From the NCBI GenBank assembly GCA_937125455.1, contig CAKZLK010000040.1, positions 1 through 64,000 on the forward strand: 64,000 nucleotides of DNA, written 5' to 3'. A program made the translations under genes and the position numbers. The notes beneath the pieces were generated by a model that saw only the letters and a list, made by a program, of their open reading frames with translations, had not been told where the DNA came from and did no database searches. Below, in pieces: positions 7,035 through 51,276 of the stretch. The DNA comes from an uncultured Aequorivita sp. Lineage in GTDB: Bacteria; Bacteroidota; Bacteroidia; Flavobacteriales; Flavobacteriaceae. The first letter of the stretch is position 1. Every line of letters starts with the position of its first letter.

Positions 7035-8123
7035 TTAATATTTTAATATTTCAATATACAATCTAATCACTTTTTCCCAAGTAAAATCTTGCGACCATTT
7101 TTTTGCACTTTGGGAATAGGTTTCGTAATTATTTAATATTTCTTCTAATGCAGATTTAAAATGCTTTGGGTCTTTATTGTTAATCAACTTCCCAGAAGAT
7201 CCATCTTTTATTGCATCTTCAATACCACAACCCAAAGCCCCAATTGCTGGAACACCAAGAGCGTTGGCTTCCAAAATAGCAATTCCAAAGCCTTCGGAAT
7301 CACCAGTTTGGGTGGTTTCGCTCAGCATTACAAAAACATCGGCTCGTTGAAGCAATTCAATTTTTTCTTCATCAGAAACTTTTCCATAAAAAACAATAGC
7401 ATGTTCAACACCTAAATGTAATCCTAATTTTTCCAAACGCTCCTTTTCCGTAGGGATACCAACAATATGATATTTAAGGTCTGGATACTGCTTTAAAAGC
7501 AACGGCAGTGCATTGATAACATTGTGCTGCCCTTTGCGTTGCGTAACGTTGCCTACGGTTATTATAATTAGGATGGGTTCATTTTTTACCTTGATAGCAG
7601 AAGATGCTTCCAAATCAAAACCGTTAGGAATAACGGTTATATTTTTCAATGAAAGATGCGAAATTAATGATCTTGTATAGTTACTTACTGCAATTATTTT
7701 ATCAAAACGTTTCAGCGACCAATCCGTAAGTTTTCGTTGCATCATGTTTGGAAGCCGTATTTCACTTCCGTGAATGATTGCAACAAACTCCTTTTTAAAG
7801 AATAGGGAAAGTAAAGCTCCCAACCAAAGGGAAAACTTACCCGAGCATATTACGATTTCAGTTTGCCGAGTTAATGAAAATGCAGTGCTGATACGTTTTA
7901 AATAACTAAAAAATATTATTTTTTTCCTCGGAATCCGTATCACTTCAAAAGTTAGATTCCTATCAAACTCCTGTTCATCCTCTCCGCTTTCTGAACGGGT
8001 ATCACATACCAACTGCACTTCAAAACCATTCTTCTGCAAACCTTTCGCCAGATTATAGGCATGATTGCCTATACCGCCGGGCTGGGGAGGGAATTCGGAG
8101 GTGAGTATGAGGATTTTGATCAT
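7035..8123 (-). CDS. Glycosyltransferase family 4
   Basis: 362 residues. The N-terminal glycine loop [16 protein letters not shown] lies at about residues 12-27, the hinge motif VIPNGFD near 164-170 and EX7E at E277 and E285 ([12 protein letters not shown]). This is a textbook GT4 retaining enzyme with both nucleotide-sugar and acceptor loops conserved. Unusually, the nucleotides immediately upstream of its ATG are a heptamer repeat (8124-8182) rather than a spacer with a ribosome-binding site. Translation initiation therefore occurs at the edge of a tandem array. Confidence 0.92.
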
Positions 8124-8182
8124 TGTCAGTTGTCGGTTGTCGGTTGTGGGTTGTCAGTTTTGGGTTGTTGGTTGTTGGTTTT
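8124..8182. repeat. Degenerate heptamer array (GTTGTCG/GTTGTGG type) touching the start codon
   Basis: About eight 7-bp units follow directly after the ATG complement at 8121-8123: GTTGTCG, GTTGTCG, GTTGTGG, GTTGTCA, GTTTTGG, GTTGTTG, GTTGTTG. On the transcribed strand the sequence before the ATG therefore reads as CAACCGA-like units. The same geometry recurs at 42598. Confidence 0.85.
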
Positions 8183-8206
8183 GATATTTAATTTTTAATA
8201 GGTGCG

Positions 8207-8280
8207 TTTTTTAACCACAAAGAACACGAAGCTATCCACAAAGGGCACAAAGGGTGTTTCTTTAAGAACTTTGTGTTTTC
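8207..8280. repeat. CACAAAG-type degenerate repeat
   Basis: Units accacaaagaacacgaag, ccacaaagggcacaaagg and aactttgtgttttcc are related to those at 2860-2952. With the heptamer arrays on either side (8124-8182 and 8411-8441), repeats occupy more than half of this 300-bp gap. The remainder (8281-8410) shows no gene I can support. Confidence 0.65.
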
Positions 8281-8410
8281 CATGCATCAAGCATCCAGAT
8301 TCTTTATCATCGTGCCTTACTGTAATTTTTTCGACTCCAAACGACAGGAGATAATCCATCGGCTTCGCTCAGGGTACAATTTTCATCTTGGAACTTGTAC
8401 CTTATACAGA

Positions 8411-8441
8411 GAACCGACAACCGATAACTCACAACCGATCA
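8411..8441. repeat. Heptamer array overlapping a stop codon
   Basis: On the minus strand this reads as GTTGTGA, GTTATCG, GTTGTCG, GTTC. The TGA stop of the glycosyltransferase ending at 8429 lies inside the first unit, so the last codons (ending D-R-L-stop) are partly made of repeat sequence. Confidence 0.75.
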
Positions 8442-28066: not shown

Positions 28067-28153
28067 ATGGTTGGATTGTTGGATGGTTGGATGGTTGGAT
28101 GGTTGGATGGTTGGATGGTTGGATGCTTGGATGCTTGGATTGTTGGATTGTTT
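28067..28153. repeat. GGATGGTT 8-bp tandem array (about ten units)
   Basis: Near-perfect 8-mers ggatggtt, with two ggatgctt and terminal ggattgtt variants, follow one another without spacers. The unit length (8) differs from the heptamer families elsewhere in the window. Open frames through it encode only low-complexity S/T/I/Q/P/N/H strings and are not genes. Confidence 0.9.
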
Positions 28154-40815: not shown

Positions 40816-42078
40816 TTATTCAAGTTTTATTAATTCTGCATCTAGCAGAAAAGGTGTCCATATTTCAGTTTCGTGTTCAATTTGAATTGTTAGGGTTTTA
40901 TGAACTTTAAAATTCACATTTGACGAGTGATTCTTGGAAGCTGTTAATGTGATGTTATACAAACCCTTAGACAGATAAACATTCCTTAATCTAAATGTAA
41001 AAGATAAATAATCATTTGTGTCTACAGTACTGAGGGATTGACCGTCTGGTAACATTTCAGCTACGCCTCTTTGCTCTTTATCATAAACAGCAAGAGATAT
41101 ATAAGGAATGTTTGTTAATGAAATATTTTTAAGTACGAACTTTAAATCTATTGAACTTCCCCAAGGAATCTTATATATTCCTTCCGTTTTTTCAAATCCT
41201 TCTATATATGCTTCTTTAAATAATAATGAACCATCTGTGAAAACTACATTAGATTTTGAATCGTCCAAAAATCTATTATAGTACATATCAATTGCCTTCG
41301 ATATATTTTCCCCTTGAAATATAGCTTCCCCTTTCTCCATCAAAATAATCTGATTACATATCCGCGAAACCATAGGCATAGAGTGCGACACAAAAACAAT
41401 GGCCGTGTTAGGCAAAATGATGTCTATTTGTTTAAAACATTTTAATACAAAACCCAAATCCCCTACTGCAAGCACCTCATCAATAATCAACACATCTGGC
41501 TCCATTTGCGCCGCCACAGCGAAGCCCAAACGCACCTTCATCCCACTGCTGTAGTTTTGTACGGGCATATCTATAAACTCGCGTATTTCAGCAAAGTCTA
41601 TGATCTCTTCTACTTTTTGATCTATCTCCTTTCGGGTAAAACCTAAAATAGCGCCATTGTTATAGATGTTCTCCCTACCACTCAAAATAGGGTTAAACCC
41701 CGCACCCAGTTCTATCAACGCCCCTACCCTGCCCTTAATGGTTACTTTTCCGGCATCTGGGTTTATAAGGCCGTTTAGTATTTTTAAAAGTGTAGATTTC
41801 CCGGCTCCGTTATGGCCTATCAGCCCCAAACACTCCCCACGCCGTAGCTCAAAACTAATATCCTTCACAGCCCAAAACTCCTTAGGCCGCAGCTCGCGCT
41901 CATTGCGATTCCCGCTCAACCCACTAGCCAAATCCTTCACCCCATACCACAAACTGGTTTTAAGGTCTTTGCAGAACTTTTTGGAGAGGTTTTCGACTTT
42001 TACGAGGACTTCGTTGTCGGTTGTCGGTTGTCGGTTCTCAGTTGTCGATTCTGGATTGTCGGTTTTGGGTTGTGGCAC
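40816..42078 (-). CDS. wzt: Polysaccharide ABC exporter ATPase with C-terminal carbohydrate-recognition domain (Wzt-like)
   Basis: 420 residues. ATPase domain: Walker A GHNGAGKS (88-95), the short family-specific signature NYSSGMKVRL (175-184), Walker B VLIIDEVLAVGD (196-207), switch H232. The C-terminal region (about 285-420) is predicted beta-sandwich (SSIDLKFVLKNISL, LSFTFRLRNVYL, YNITLTASKN), like the Wzt_C domain that recognises the modified end of the chain. The only usable in-frame start is GTG at 42078, because a stop lies four codons upstream and no ATG precedes the ATPase. The first 23 residues are therefore translated from a heptamer array, which is unusual. Confidence 0.9.
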   Translation of the reverse strand: MPQPKTDNPESTTENRQPTTDNEVLVKVENLSKKFCKDLKTSLWYGVKDLASGLSGNRNERELRPKEFWAVKDISFELRRGECLGLIGHNGAGKSTLLKILNGLINPDAGKVTIKGRVGALIELGAGFNPILSGRENIYNNGAILGFTRKEIDQKVEEIIDFAEIREFIDMPVQNYSSGMKVRLGFAVAAQMEPDVLIIDEVLAVGDLGFVLKCFKQIDIILPNTAIVFVSHSMPMVSRICNQIILMEKGEAIFQGENISKAIDMYYNRFLDDSKSNVVFTDGSLLFKEAYIEGFEKTEGIYKIPWGSSIDLKFVLKNISLTNIPYISLAVYDKEQRGVAEMLPDGQSLSTVDTNDYLSFTFRLRNVYLSKGLYNITLTASKNHSSNVNFKVHKTLTIQIEHETEIWTPFLLDAELIKLE

Positions 42079-42234
42079 GGTTGTCGGTTATCGGTTATCA
42101 GTTGTGGGTTATCGGTTGTCAGTTGTGGGTTGTGGGTTGTGGGTTGTGGGTTGTGGGTTCTCTGTTGTGAGTTGTGAGTTGTCAGTTGTGGGTTGTCAGT
42201 TGTGGGTTGTCAGTTGTGGGTTGTCAGTTGTGGG
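42013..42234. repeat. Large degenerate heptamer array between wzt and the four-helix-bundle gene
   Basis: About 30 units of seven bases: GTTGTCG, GTTATCG, GTTGTGG, GTTGTCA, GTTCTCT, GTTGTGA. The last dozen, toward the four-helix gene, alternate regularly as GTTGTCA and GTTGTGG. It fills the entire intergenic gap, touches the TAA of the four-helix gene and runs about 22 codons into the wzt reading frame. Confidence 0.93.
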
Positions 42235-42597
42235 TTAAGTTTTCCAGTTATTTTCTACGTATGTAATAAAAGAATAAATTTTTCCTCCTAATAAGTCATA
42301 TTTCTCTATTAAATCAGAAACGGGAACATCAGTATATATATTTTGTATCATATGCAATTGTGAAAGGCATTCTAAGAGTGATGCATGTGCATATATCAAA
42401 AATTTCACGAAATCTTGTTTATATTTTCTCCTACCATACCCCTCTACAATATTGTCCTTAATACTTTTTGAGGAGCGCCTAATTTGGCTTCCCATCTCAT
42501 AAAGTTCAAATTTAGGCAACAGCAACGACATTTTATGAACTTCAAGGGCATAATCGAATGCTAAATTATAGATGTCTAAATCTTTATAACTTTTCAT
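42235..42597 (-). CDS. Four-helix-bundle protein (23S rRNA IVP/Avd-like family)
   Basis: 120 residues. YKDLDIYNLAFDYALEVHKM, the helix-2 motif GSQIRRSSKSIKDNIVEGYG, then RKYKQDFVKFLIYAHASLLE are the standard blocks of this small all-helical family (LxVYxxA...QIRRAAxSIxxNIAEG). Members occur in 23S rRNA intervening sequences and, as Avd, beside reverse transcriptases in diversity-generating retroelements. Stand-alone copies are common in Bacteroidetes and have no known role. It sits between wzm and wzt and is enclosed on both sides by heptamer arrays, which touch both its start and its stop. Confidence 0.92.
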   Translation of the reverse strand: MKSYKDLDIYNLAFDYALEVHKMSLLLPKFELYEMGSQIRRSSKSIKDNIVEGYGRRKYKQDFVKFLIYAHASLLECLSQLHMIQNIYTDVPVSDLIEKYDLLGGKIYSFITYVENNWKT

Positions 42598-42648
42598 TGT
42601 CGGTTCTCTGTTGTCTGTTCGCTGTTTTGAGTTGTCAGTTGTTGGTTA
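42598..42648. repeat. Heptamer array touching the start of the four-helix-bundle gene
   Basis: Units GTTCTCT, GTTGTCT, GTTCGCT, GTTTTGA, GTTGTCA, GTTGTTG follow the complement of ATG without a spacer. The junction (cat followed by tgtc) is the same as at 8121-8128. Confidence 0.82.
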
Positions 42649-42705: not shown

Positions 42706-42818
42706 CGTCATTGCGAGCGCAGTGAAGCGATCTACTGAGGCTTAGTTCTTAACATGATGTAACCCTGTTCCATGAGATTGCTTCAGTCGCTCCCTTTGGT
42801 CGTTCCCTCGCAATGACG
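42706..42818. repeat. MITE-like element with 12-bp terminal inverted repeats
   Basis: It begins CGTCATTGCGAG and ends CTCGCAATGACG, perfect terminal inverted repeats around a 113-bp element with an internal agattgcttcagtcgctcc-type segment. A longer diverged copy occurs at 51089-51226. No open reading frame is present. Confidence 0.85.
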
Positions 42819-42859: not shown

Positions 42860-42940
42860 TTCATAACTCACAACAGACAACTCATAACTCATAACTAGTA
42901 ACTCGTAACTCATAACTCATAACTCATAACCGACAACTGA
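42860..42940. repeat. Heptamer array touching the wzm stop codon
   Basis: Read on the minus strand: GTTGTCG, GTTATGA three times, GTTACGA, GTTACTA, GTTATGA twice, GTTGTCT, GTTGTGA, GTTATGA. It starts two bases after the TAA of the permease gene. Confidence 0.88.
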
Positions 42941-43786
42941 TTACGCACTCATCCGTTCCACCAAAATAGGAATTGAGATTCTATAGAACAACAAAGCAAT
43001 AAAAAACAGGGGGATACAGCAAGCAATTACGATTAAAAAATACGTTAGCTGCATGGGCGGCATGCCTACGGCTAGGTCACGGGCGGTTAGTATGATTGGG
43101 GTAAATGGGTTCAATTCCATTACGCTTTTCATAATACCGCTTTTGGGAATGGCATAGACCACTGGGGTAACGTACATCAAAAAACCCAATCCAAAACTTA
43201 TTAGTCGACCAATATCTTTATAGAGCATCCCCAAGGGAGTGATAAACAATCCTAGTGTAGTTCCGAACAATACGCCTCCCAGAATAGCAATTGGAAATAG
43301 CAATAGGCTCCAATGAAACCCAACTCCGAAAAAGAAAATAAATACCAATAGTAGCAATACTTTTATGGAACTATTAAACAAAAGTTTATAGACCCCGGAA
43401 ACAATGAGCGCTTCCTTTGGAAAATTGATTTTAGACAAAATAGACTTTGCGCTATTGGTACTACTCATGGGCGAATTAATAGCCTCCGTCATAATAGACC
43501 ACAAGAGCGTTCCTGAAAAGGCATATACCGGATAGGGAATACCCGTATCGGTCACCCGAACGGTACCAGAATTATTCAGAAAGATCCATACAAAAGCAGT
43601 GGCAAGCGGTGTTACAAACGCCCAAATAATCCCAAGATAACTTTGGCGGTACTGTGCCTGAATGTCTCTTTTTGCCAATTGAAATGCTAAGAAACGGGAC
43701 TTGGATATGTCTGCCAAGCTCTCTTTCAGCATCTTGCCAATACGGAAATTATTTTCTTTTTGATAGACTTTGGTTTCCAGTTCCAT
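42941..43786 (-). CDS. wzm: Polysaccharide ABC exporter permease (Wzm-like)
   Basis: 281 residues with an amphipathic N-terminus and six predicted membrane helices. FLAFQLAKRDIQAQYRQSYLG then IIWAFVTPLATAFVW is the diagnostic cytoplasmic-to-TM1 region of O-antigen/teichoic ABC2 permeases. SILSKINFPKEALIVSGVYK and PVVYAIP and NPFTPIILTARDL are further family motifs. With the ATPase at 40816 it would export a finished, lipid-linked chain. The pair is separated by a 0.86-kb stretch holding the four-helix-bundle gene and repeats, unlike the usual adjacent wzm-wzt. Confidence 0.93.
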   Translation of the reverse strand: MELETKVYQKENNFRIGKMLKESLADISKSRFLAFQLAKRDIQAQYRQSYLGIIWAFVTPLATAFVWIFLNNSGTVRVTDTGIPYPVYAFSGTLLWSIMTEAINSPMSSTNSAKSILSKINFPKEALIVSGVYKLLFNSSIKVLLLLVFIFFFGVGFHWSLLLFPIAILGGVLFGTTLGLFITPLGMLYKDIGRLISFGLGFLMYVTPVVYAIPKSGIMKSVMELNPFTPIILTARDLAVGMPPMQLTYFLIVIACCIPLFFIALLFYRISIPILVERMSA

Positions 43787-43927: not shown

Positions 43928-44020
43928 GTAAATGTGGGGTTGGGGGTTTGGTTGTTGATTGATGGTTGATGGTTGTTGGTTTGTAGATTCCTAAATAGGA
44001 TTGACTGTTTTTATTTCGTT

Positions 44021-44720
44021 TTGTTCCCCCTTTGGGGGTTAGGGGGACTAGCAGCGAAGTTTGTGAATTTGGGATTTGAGATTTGAGATTTGAGATTTGG
44101 GATTTGGGATTTTGAATCTCGTACTTCGTCGTTCGTACCTCGTACCTCCAATGTCAGGTCGAGTGAATTTGAGGGAGGCGACAGCCGAGCTTAAATTTGT
44201 ATCGAGACCGGGTTGGAATTTGGGATTTGGTCCTTCGACTGCGCTCAGGATGACAAAATTGGGATTTGGTTGATGGTTGTTGTTTTGAGCTTGCCTGATT
44301 AAGGTTGCCTTTTTTTATTGCGTTTTGTTCCCCCTTTGGGGGTTAGGGGGACTAGCAGCGAAGTTTGTGAATTTGGGATTTGAGATTTGAGATTTGGGAT
44401 TTGGGGTTTTGAATCTCGTACTTCGTCGTTCGTACCTCGTACCTCCAATGTCAGGTCGAGTGAATTTAAAAGAGGCAGCAGCCGATTTTAAATTTGTATC
44501 GAGACCGGGTTGGAGTTTGGGATTTGGTCCTTCGACTGCGCTCAGGATGACAAAATTGGGATTTGGTTGTTGGTTGTTGGTTTGAGCTTGCCTGATTAAG
44601 GTTGCCCTTTTTCATTACCTTTTGTTCCCCCTTTGGGGGTTAGGGGGACTAGCAGCGAAGTTTGTGAATTTGGGATTTGAGATTTGGGATTTGAGATTTG
44701 GGATTATATTTAAAGTTAAC
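44021..44720. repeat. About 300-bp tandem repeat, 2.3 copies
   Basis: Three units start with ttgttccccctttgggggtt at 44021, 44325 and 44622, giving periods of 304 and 297 bp. Each full unit holds a hairpin (CCCCCTTTGGGGG), a GAGATTT heptamer run, a gtacttcgtcgttcgtacct inverted segment, the tcaggtcgagtgaatttga segment, ccttcgactgcgctcaggat, and ttgagcttgcctgattaagg. The third copy is cut off by the GAA tract. No gene is supported in this kilobase. Confidence 0.9.
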
Positions 44721-51088: not shown

Positions 51089-51226
51089 CGTCATTGCGAG
51101 CGCAGCGAAGCAATCTCGTGAGTACGAGTTCTAAACACCATTGGAGCGCTCCGCTATGAGATTGCTTCACTTCGACGGGGCTCAGCACAGGCAGTTACTC
51201 CCTGCCGTCGTTCCTTCGCAATGAGG
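51089..51226. repeat. MITE-like element, second copy
   Basis: CGTCATTGCGAGCGCAGCG at the left and TCGCAATGAGG at the right are imperfect terminal inverted repeats. An internal atgagattgcttcacttcga plus ggggctcagc insert makes it longer (138 bp) than the copy at 42706-42818. Confidence 0.8.
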
Positions 51227-51276
51227 TTTTTTTCAATGCGCGATTGTCATTTCCAGTATAGGGTTACTCTATTTTC

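Follow-up and report, generated by a model that had tools for sequence, protein, structure and literature searches.

The four-helix-bundle protein gene fhb, located between wzm-like and wzt-like genes in DNA of an uncultured Aequorivita sp. (contig CAKZLK010000040.1; the whole 64,000-nucleotide stretch is referred to as the window), is probably the cargo of a heptamer-armed cassette, in which the gene occupies the loop between two inverted, degenerate arrays of 7-nt words that fill the spacer from the stop codon of one operon gene to the start codon of the next. The best reading of this cassette is a rarely moving element that resembles an intervening sequence (IVS) and resides outside rRNA. 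Movement would be a rare event, within as well as between genomes, and would involve the gene together with its arms, and hairpins consisting of arms only may be fhb-less members of the same cassette class. A broader claim, that fhb and the inverted heptamer arms constitute one class of mobile elements present in many phyla and on cyanobacterial plasmids, with the arms-only hairpins as non-autonomous members, has about even chances of being correct. The mirror-image arms around fhb suggest where some of the unexplained heptamer repeats of bacteria come from. Additionally, the data tie the fhb/IVP family to widespread heptamer repeats and provide its protein with a testable partner, its own arms. 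If the broader claim is true, the element class would explain the heptamer repeats of cyanobacteria, Xanthomonas, Beggiatoaceae and Bacteroidetes, and the fhb protein would bind nucleic acid, reading DNA or RNA with a 7-nt register.

The fhb open reading frame encodes 120 aa and matches PF05635 (81.7 bits, E 5.3e-23, cut-off 33.8) and TIGR02436 (85 bits, E 3.9e-24, cut-off 24). These matches above the curated cut-offs, together with the family fold, place the protein in the family and confirm the four-helix-bundle (IVP/Avd-like) assignment made in a preliminary description of this DNA. The structure of the protein is predicted with a pLDDT of 97, and a Foldseek search with the model returns 2gsc (TM 0.89) and 2rld (TM up to 0.73), which comprise five chains each of a family protein, and more weakly Avd (4dwl, TM 0.58). 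The title of the 2gsc paper, as cited in the reference list of PMC3936711, refers to five four-helix bundles. Of 148 genomes sampled from the phylum (Bacteroidota), 116 carry members of the fhb/IVP family, often in multiple copies. To our knowledge, no function has been established for this family. We infer that the fhb protein, which in a solved relative comprises five four-helix bundles, handles nucleic acid, and it may act on the heptamers. A profile search detects 11 fhb matches in the genome of the window and 5 to 21 per genome across the 28 genomes of the genus (the former included), and at least two matches are present in 29 of the 34 genomes or records listed. Three copies of the window's genome (L009, L010 and L011) represent weaker-scoring, divergent subfamilies (57, 44 and 40 bits). 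Carriage of fhb by phages was considered and rejected, as a search at 1e-5 with one query protein yields no match among 50,697 phage records.

The features of the window cassette, all of whose genes are on the minus strand, are listed in Table 1. The outer array begins right after the wzm stop codon, with GTTATGA and GTTGTCT as its words in the gene sense, and is the inverted complement of one part of the downstream array, which constitutes the downstream arm; none of 500 dinucleotide shuffles reaches the score of this alignment, the best being 25. Because the outer array is inverted to the downstream array, the two make up a heptamer stem whose loop holds fhb; the predicted fold of the cassette includes this pairing. 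The inner array aligns with the downstream flank in direct orientation (score 46); the two arrays that touch the gene are therefore direct to each other, and the third is inverted to the downstream one. For this copy, the arm test described below used the full 343-nt upstream spacer and was chosen after the arrays had been seen. With flanks of 200 or 250 nt the copy fails the test, because the outer arm lies farther out. One detector finds 12 period-7 arrays in the window and none in three dinucleotide shuffles.

Table 1. Features of the fhb cassette and of two probable arms-only cassettes in the window
Feature	Position	Strand	Basis
Wzt-like ABC ATPase, downstream neighbour	40816..42078	-	ORF; PF00005; GTG start 42078 inside array
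Downstream heptamer array, C/A-rich in gene sense	42013..42236	-	Period-7 tandem repeat, 32.4 copies
fhb, four-helix-bundle / 23S rRNA-intervening-sequence protein	42235..42597	-	PF05635, TIGR02436, predicted structure, Foldseek
Inner array adjoining fhb start, 14-nt unit in its detected repeat (42597-42626)	42598..42647	-	Direct to downstream flank
Palindromic repeat (GTCATTGCGAGCG...CTCGCAATGAC) in loop	about 42706..42818	.	By eye
Upstream outer arm, G/T-rich heptamers	42865..42940	-	Inverted to 42119-42194, score 65
Wzm-like ABC permease, upstream neighbour	42941..43786	-	ORF; weak NCBIfam Wzm/RfbD match below cut-off
Arms-only cassette, probable, between two minus-strand ORFs	8123..8440	-	Arrays detected, pairing by eye
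Arms-only cassette, probable, palindromic repeat in loop	51025..51336	-	Arrays detected, arrangement by eye

The preliminary description had reported a heptamer array on either side of the gene, adjoining its start and stop, and both are present (about 32 copies downstream and a short array at the start). The range that it assigned to the gene, 42235-42648, holds for the gene up to 42597, the remainder being the array upstream of the start codon. Its view that repeats enclose the gene is correct as far as the arrays are concerned, but the enclosing arrays are inverted arms, and their words differ from copy to copy. Enclosure by direct repeats alone was given up in favour of inverted arms once all 11 copies in the window's genome had been inspected for their flanks: inverted short-word flanks surround most of them, with different words in each, as judged by eye.

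The palindromic repeat in the loop is absent from the cassette of the same fhb subfamily (70% identical) that lies between wzm and wzt in genome G008, where the inverted arms are close to the gene. On this comparison of sequences, the palindromic repeat is probably a separate, later insertion. In the first of the two probable arms-only cassettes, the arrays at 8123-8183 and about 8407-8440 are in opposite orientation, as judged by eye and unscored. The wzt ORF begins at a GTG within the heptamer array, and the repeats of window positions 42010-42078 are consequently read as an N-terminal extension; relatives begin at an ATG just before NEVL.

In the arm test, the upstream flank is aligned to the reverse complement of the downstream flank and compared with 100 dinucleotide shuffles. 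Among 114 fhb loci (5 of 119 were left out because a flank was too short), inverted arms at p <= 1/100 are found at 75, versus 8 of 127 control genes (fhb and its neighbours excluded). These loci are distributed as 6 of 11 in the window's genome, 21 of 27 in congeners and 48 of 76 in a wide set, which was taken from the best 80 of 561 relatives, representing about 15 phyla by record title, with 2 of the 80 dropped for too short a flank. In the non-Bacteroidota part of the wide set, 15 of 28 loci have inverted arms. The arms are also found around 20 of 31 further copies (40 loci, best matches first, minus 8 duplicates and 1 locus at a contig edge) and around 10 of 12 plasmid copies (11 cyanobacterial and 1 from Gemmatirosa) taken from the upper part of 40 matching plasmid records. 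Pooling of all sets gives 108 of 160 fhb loci with inverted arms; the other 52 do not reach the threshold.

The arms have a clear period. In the wide set, their autocorrelation reaches 0.516 and 0.488 at lags 7 and 14, respectively, whereas lags 2 to 15 otherwise give 0.23-0.29. When the best lag between 4 and 11 is taken for each of 65 loci, it is 7 in 50, 8 in 10, 6 in 3 and 9 in 2, and a best lag of 7 is also obtained for 17 of 20 further copies. The L011-type subfamily, which lies after paaB, has arm words of 6 nt instead of 7 nt, as judged by eye. The outer edges of the arms lie a median of 2 nt past the upstream stop codon and 6.5 nt ahead of the next start codon. The arms also have a polarity: in the sense of fhb, the upstream arm contains more G than C at 63 of 75 loci and less at 10. 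The cassettes favour the operon sense strand: both neighbours are on the strand of fhb at 119 of 150 loci, both are on the opposite strand at 9, and the remaining 22 are mixed. The G-rich upstream polarity is kept in 6 of 7 cassettes that are antisense to both neighbours, which indicates that the polarity follows fhb and not the host operon. The fhb cassette L173 of a Nostoc plasmid, which is antisense to the two ribonucleotide reductase genes on either side of it, retains its G-rich-first arms.

A comparison of arms and genes among 157 loci, from which 84 same-site pairs were removed, reveals that arm similarity rises with fhb identity; the pairs are non-independent, and shared ancestry is ignored. 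An arm similarity of at least 28 is reached by 29 of 1860 pairs (1.6%) below an fhb identity of 0.35, by 107 of 6252 at 0.35-0.45, by 169 of 3649 at 0.45-0.55, by 45 of 362 at 0.55-0.65, by 8 of 26 at 0.65-0.72 and by 9 of 13 (69%) above that, and with shuffled arms as a control by 0-0.3% of pairs. Similar pairs also occur across phyla, as in Adhaeribacter (L040) and Pseudanabaena (L179), and in Methylobacillus (L047) with Nitrospinota (L058) and with a deltaproteobacterium (L099). Because arm similarity tracks fhb identity at unrelated sites, the gene and its arms seem to travel together.

The distribution of the arrays was examined in arbitrary 20-kb stretches. Ten fhb-bearing genomes contain 13 heptamer arrays in 800 kb, located in 6 of the 10 genomes, and ten genomes without a PF05635 match contain none in 704 kb. 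Among the genomes without a match, G115 and G161 belong to the family of the window, phylogeny is otherwise uncontrolled in this comparison, and some stretches are from contig starts. Three detector settings give 11, 13 and 10 arrays in the fhb-bearing genomes and 0 each in the first four fhb-less genomes; for the other six, the middle setting only was used. A higher number of fhb matches per genome (9 to 14) is not accompanied by more arrays than a single match (6 and 7 arrays, respectively, in 400 kb each).

These results bear on a mutational origin of the arms, according to which slippage grows the arrays, template switching during replication makes the inverted arms and keeps them alike, and fhb merely lands there. 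Such processes would account for arm words that differ from locus to locus while the two arms of one cassette are alike (87% identical, 85 loci), and for the frequency of arms-only hairpins between paaA and paaB. However, the absence of arrays from the sampled 704 kb of fhb-less genomes, the tracking of fhb identity by arms at unrelated sites and a polarity that follows the fhb strand in antisense cassettes make this origin improbable.

The histories of single sites were followed in the 28 genomes of the genus, with paaB as a marker of two sites; fhb was called by profile and the remaining states by eye. Between paaA and paaB, 8 genomes contain fhb (shortened in G020), 13 contain an arms-only hairpin, 4 contain other sequence, and in 3 (G002, G011 and G018) the two genes directly abut. 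Between paaB and paaC, the profile detects fhb in 14 of 28 genomes, in two subfamilies with different arms, and G014 contains an apparent cassette without an ORF, as judged by eye. The spacer between wzm and wzt holds fhb of different subfamilies in 7 of the 12 genomes whose wzm is at least 73% identical (the window's genome included); in the remaining 5, the spacers are long, repeat-rich and without fhb, as judged by eye. The statement of the preliminary description that the gene breaks up a normally contiguous operon thus does not apply to this genus. The further copies that it proposed to look for exist in this genome (11) and in its relatives, with inverted arms around others of them, and empty sites are provided by the abutting paaA and paaB. 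The same description would have been contradicted by a gene that occupies one site, with ordinary spacers, throughout the related genomes, or by a lack of arrays elsewhere; fhb is present at 7 of the 12 wzm-wzt sites, and arms are found at other loci.

The orthologous copies are old. The median dN/dS of fhb is 0.033, 0.09 and 0.062 in three groups of orthologues (paaB, 0.009-0.019), and its synonymous divergence is 0.61, 1.20 and 1.16, somewhat lower than the 0.95, 1.51 and 1.59 of paaB. The purifying selection and the synonymous divergence indicate long residence, and from the age of these copies, those of the paa operon among them, it follows that movement is rare and that present-day mobility is only putative. 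The cassette has inverted ends, as do MITEs and transposons; no recombinase, insertion event or target duplication was identified for it. In 3 of the 28 genomes paaA and paaB directly abut, and no target-site duplication is seen by eye. The earlier interpretation is supported in part, and its picture of a small passenger unit that moves with its repeats in large part: different intergenic positions, filled and empty sites and arms that track fhb speak for it, but movement is rare. The selection and the somewhat lower synonymous divergence would also be expected of an ordinary, vertically inherited operon gene between neutral, repeat-rich spacers. We consider this very improbable, since one and the same site is occupied in congeners by different fhb subfamilies, by arms without the gene or not at all, and inverted arms are far more frequent than at control genes.

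Palindromes of the TTCCCGCGAAGGCGGGAATCTC kind are present in the spacer after paaB in L139 (G025), L130 (G026), L121 (G021) and L146 (G024). In G025, an ORF follows whose product, judged by eye, resembles a small GIY-YIG protein.

The arms may also be viewed at the level of RNA. The cassette could be an intervening sequence of mRNA, with arms that are kept because they pair in the operon transcript and a stem whose cleavage by RNase III or some other nuclease frees the fhb segment. This is consistent with an architecture equal to that of the 23S rRNA IVS in the available text of PMC4990558, with a strand shared with both neighbours in 119 of 150 cassettes, with the pairing of the window arms in the predicted fold and with the arms-only hairpins between paaA and paaB, whose consensus folds have energies of -21.7 and -15.7 kcal/mol (13 hairpins folded in two alignments, some weakly). 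However, mismatches between the arms are less often of the G.U type (54) than of the A.C type (82; 85 loci, binomial p 0.02), which is the wrong direction for pairing in RNA, and antisense cassettes retain their arms and polarity. A bias toward A on the sense strand may explain the deficit of G.U. The two small paaA-paaB alignments contain one doubly changed pair each, and one-sided changes that keep a pair number 11 versus 9 that break it (plus 3 gaps) in one alignment and 8 versus 14 (plus 1 gap) in the other. Neither the mismatches nor these changes support selection for an RNA stem. Taken together, an mRNA intervening sequence is a possible but unlikely explanation.

No partner enzyme is evident for the cassette. 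The genome of the window has two RVT_1 matches, both on contig C28, and the window is on C40; the earlier remark that no reverse transcriptase is near therefore holds for the entire contig of the window. RVT_1 has no match in 19 of the 28 genomes of the genus, including G006, G007 and G008, which carry 21, 17 and 21 fhb matches. Y1_Tnp has no match in 9 of the 28 genomes, all of which bear fhb, and G007, which is a single contig, lacks both. A requirement of a reverse transcriptase or a Y1 transposase for the residence of fhb was rejected, as genomes without them keep fhb. It is also scarcely credible that fhb is a retroelement accessory that works with a reverse transcriptase, like Avd in diversity-generating retroelements: the four-helix-bundle fold is common to both proteins, but unlike Avd, fhb has no reverse transcriptase at the same locus, and the fhb-rich genomes without RVT_1 argue against such a role. 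We know of no heptamer arms in diversity-generating retroelements. A further comparison is with REP/RAYT (REPIN) systems, in which one protein family likewise accompanies many non-coding inverted repeats in extragenic space; unlike RAYT, fhb is not a Y1 transposase, and as noted above, Y1_Tnp is absent from several fhb-bearing genomes.

The closest known counterpart of the heptamer-armed cassette is the IVS of 23S rRNA, for which the available part of PMC4990558 describes the same gene between complementary ends that are cut by RNase III. The protein family and the complementary ends around the ORF are shared, and such a stem around an IVP ORF is found in the window and at 108 of 160 loci. The same source gives 428 nt and a 28-bp stem for the IVS of Coxiella, and the loop between the cassette arms has a median length of 420 nt. 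The cassette differs from this IVS in its location in protein-coding spacers, its many copies per genome and its locus-specific arrays of 7-nt words. The window copy lies between wzm and wzt and not in 23S rRNA; four rRNA motifs occur in no fhb locus among 330 loci scanned and only in the fhb-less stretch L189. In light of this location, the element is described as IVS-like in architecture and is not assigned to the 23S rRNA IVS; its architecture would work as it does there, placed in the spacers of protein-coding operons.

Intergenic heptamer repeats of other bacteria, which are tandem 7-nt units like the cassette arrays, include TAACTGA (PMC4679880, as far as its available text goes) and GGGAATC and GGGGA(C/T)T (PMC4692102, likewise). 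According to the available part of PMC4692102, inverted pairs number 70 and 75 in two Xanthomonas genomes and are few in Nostoc, and the repeats lie at conserved places and are not tied to insertion sequences; conservation in place fits rare, rather than frequent, movement. Both sets of repeats share intergenic 7-nt units with the cassette arms, and those of PMC4692102 also inverted pairs and a matching strand polarity. Unlike them, the cassette arrays are tied to fhb and have variable words. The terms "four helix", "S23" and "intervening" are absent from the texts of PMC4679880 and PMC4692102, and MacGregor 2015 states that a mechanism for the horizontal spread of such repeats is not evident. 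A literature search, with preprints and most subscription journals outside its scope, found no paper that joins fhb/IVP and heptamer repeats.

On cyanobacterial plasmids, fhb with inverted arms lies between cas6 and cas4 (L174 and L179) and between cmr2 and cmr3 (L182). In the available part of PMC3936711, 18 IVP genes of the same family between cas genes are discussed together with CRISPR-associated functions. Here, L174, L179 and L182 are read as operon-spacer cassettes, and this would be a simple reading of the IVP genes in cas loci in general.

Palindromes of the GTCATTGCGAGCGCAG kind are seen by eye in the loops of heptamer hairpins at window positions 42706-42818 and about 51090-51230 and are perhaps an alternative cargo of such hairpins. 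Upstream of wzm, a 297-bp tandem unit (2.5 copies, 43963-44705) contains ATTTGGG/ATTTGAG heptamers. Additionally, an array at 28067-28152 of the window repeats the 8-mer ATGGTTGG about 11 times.
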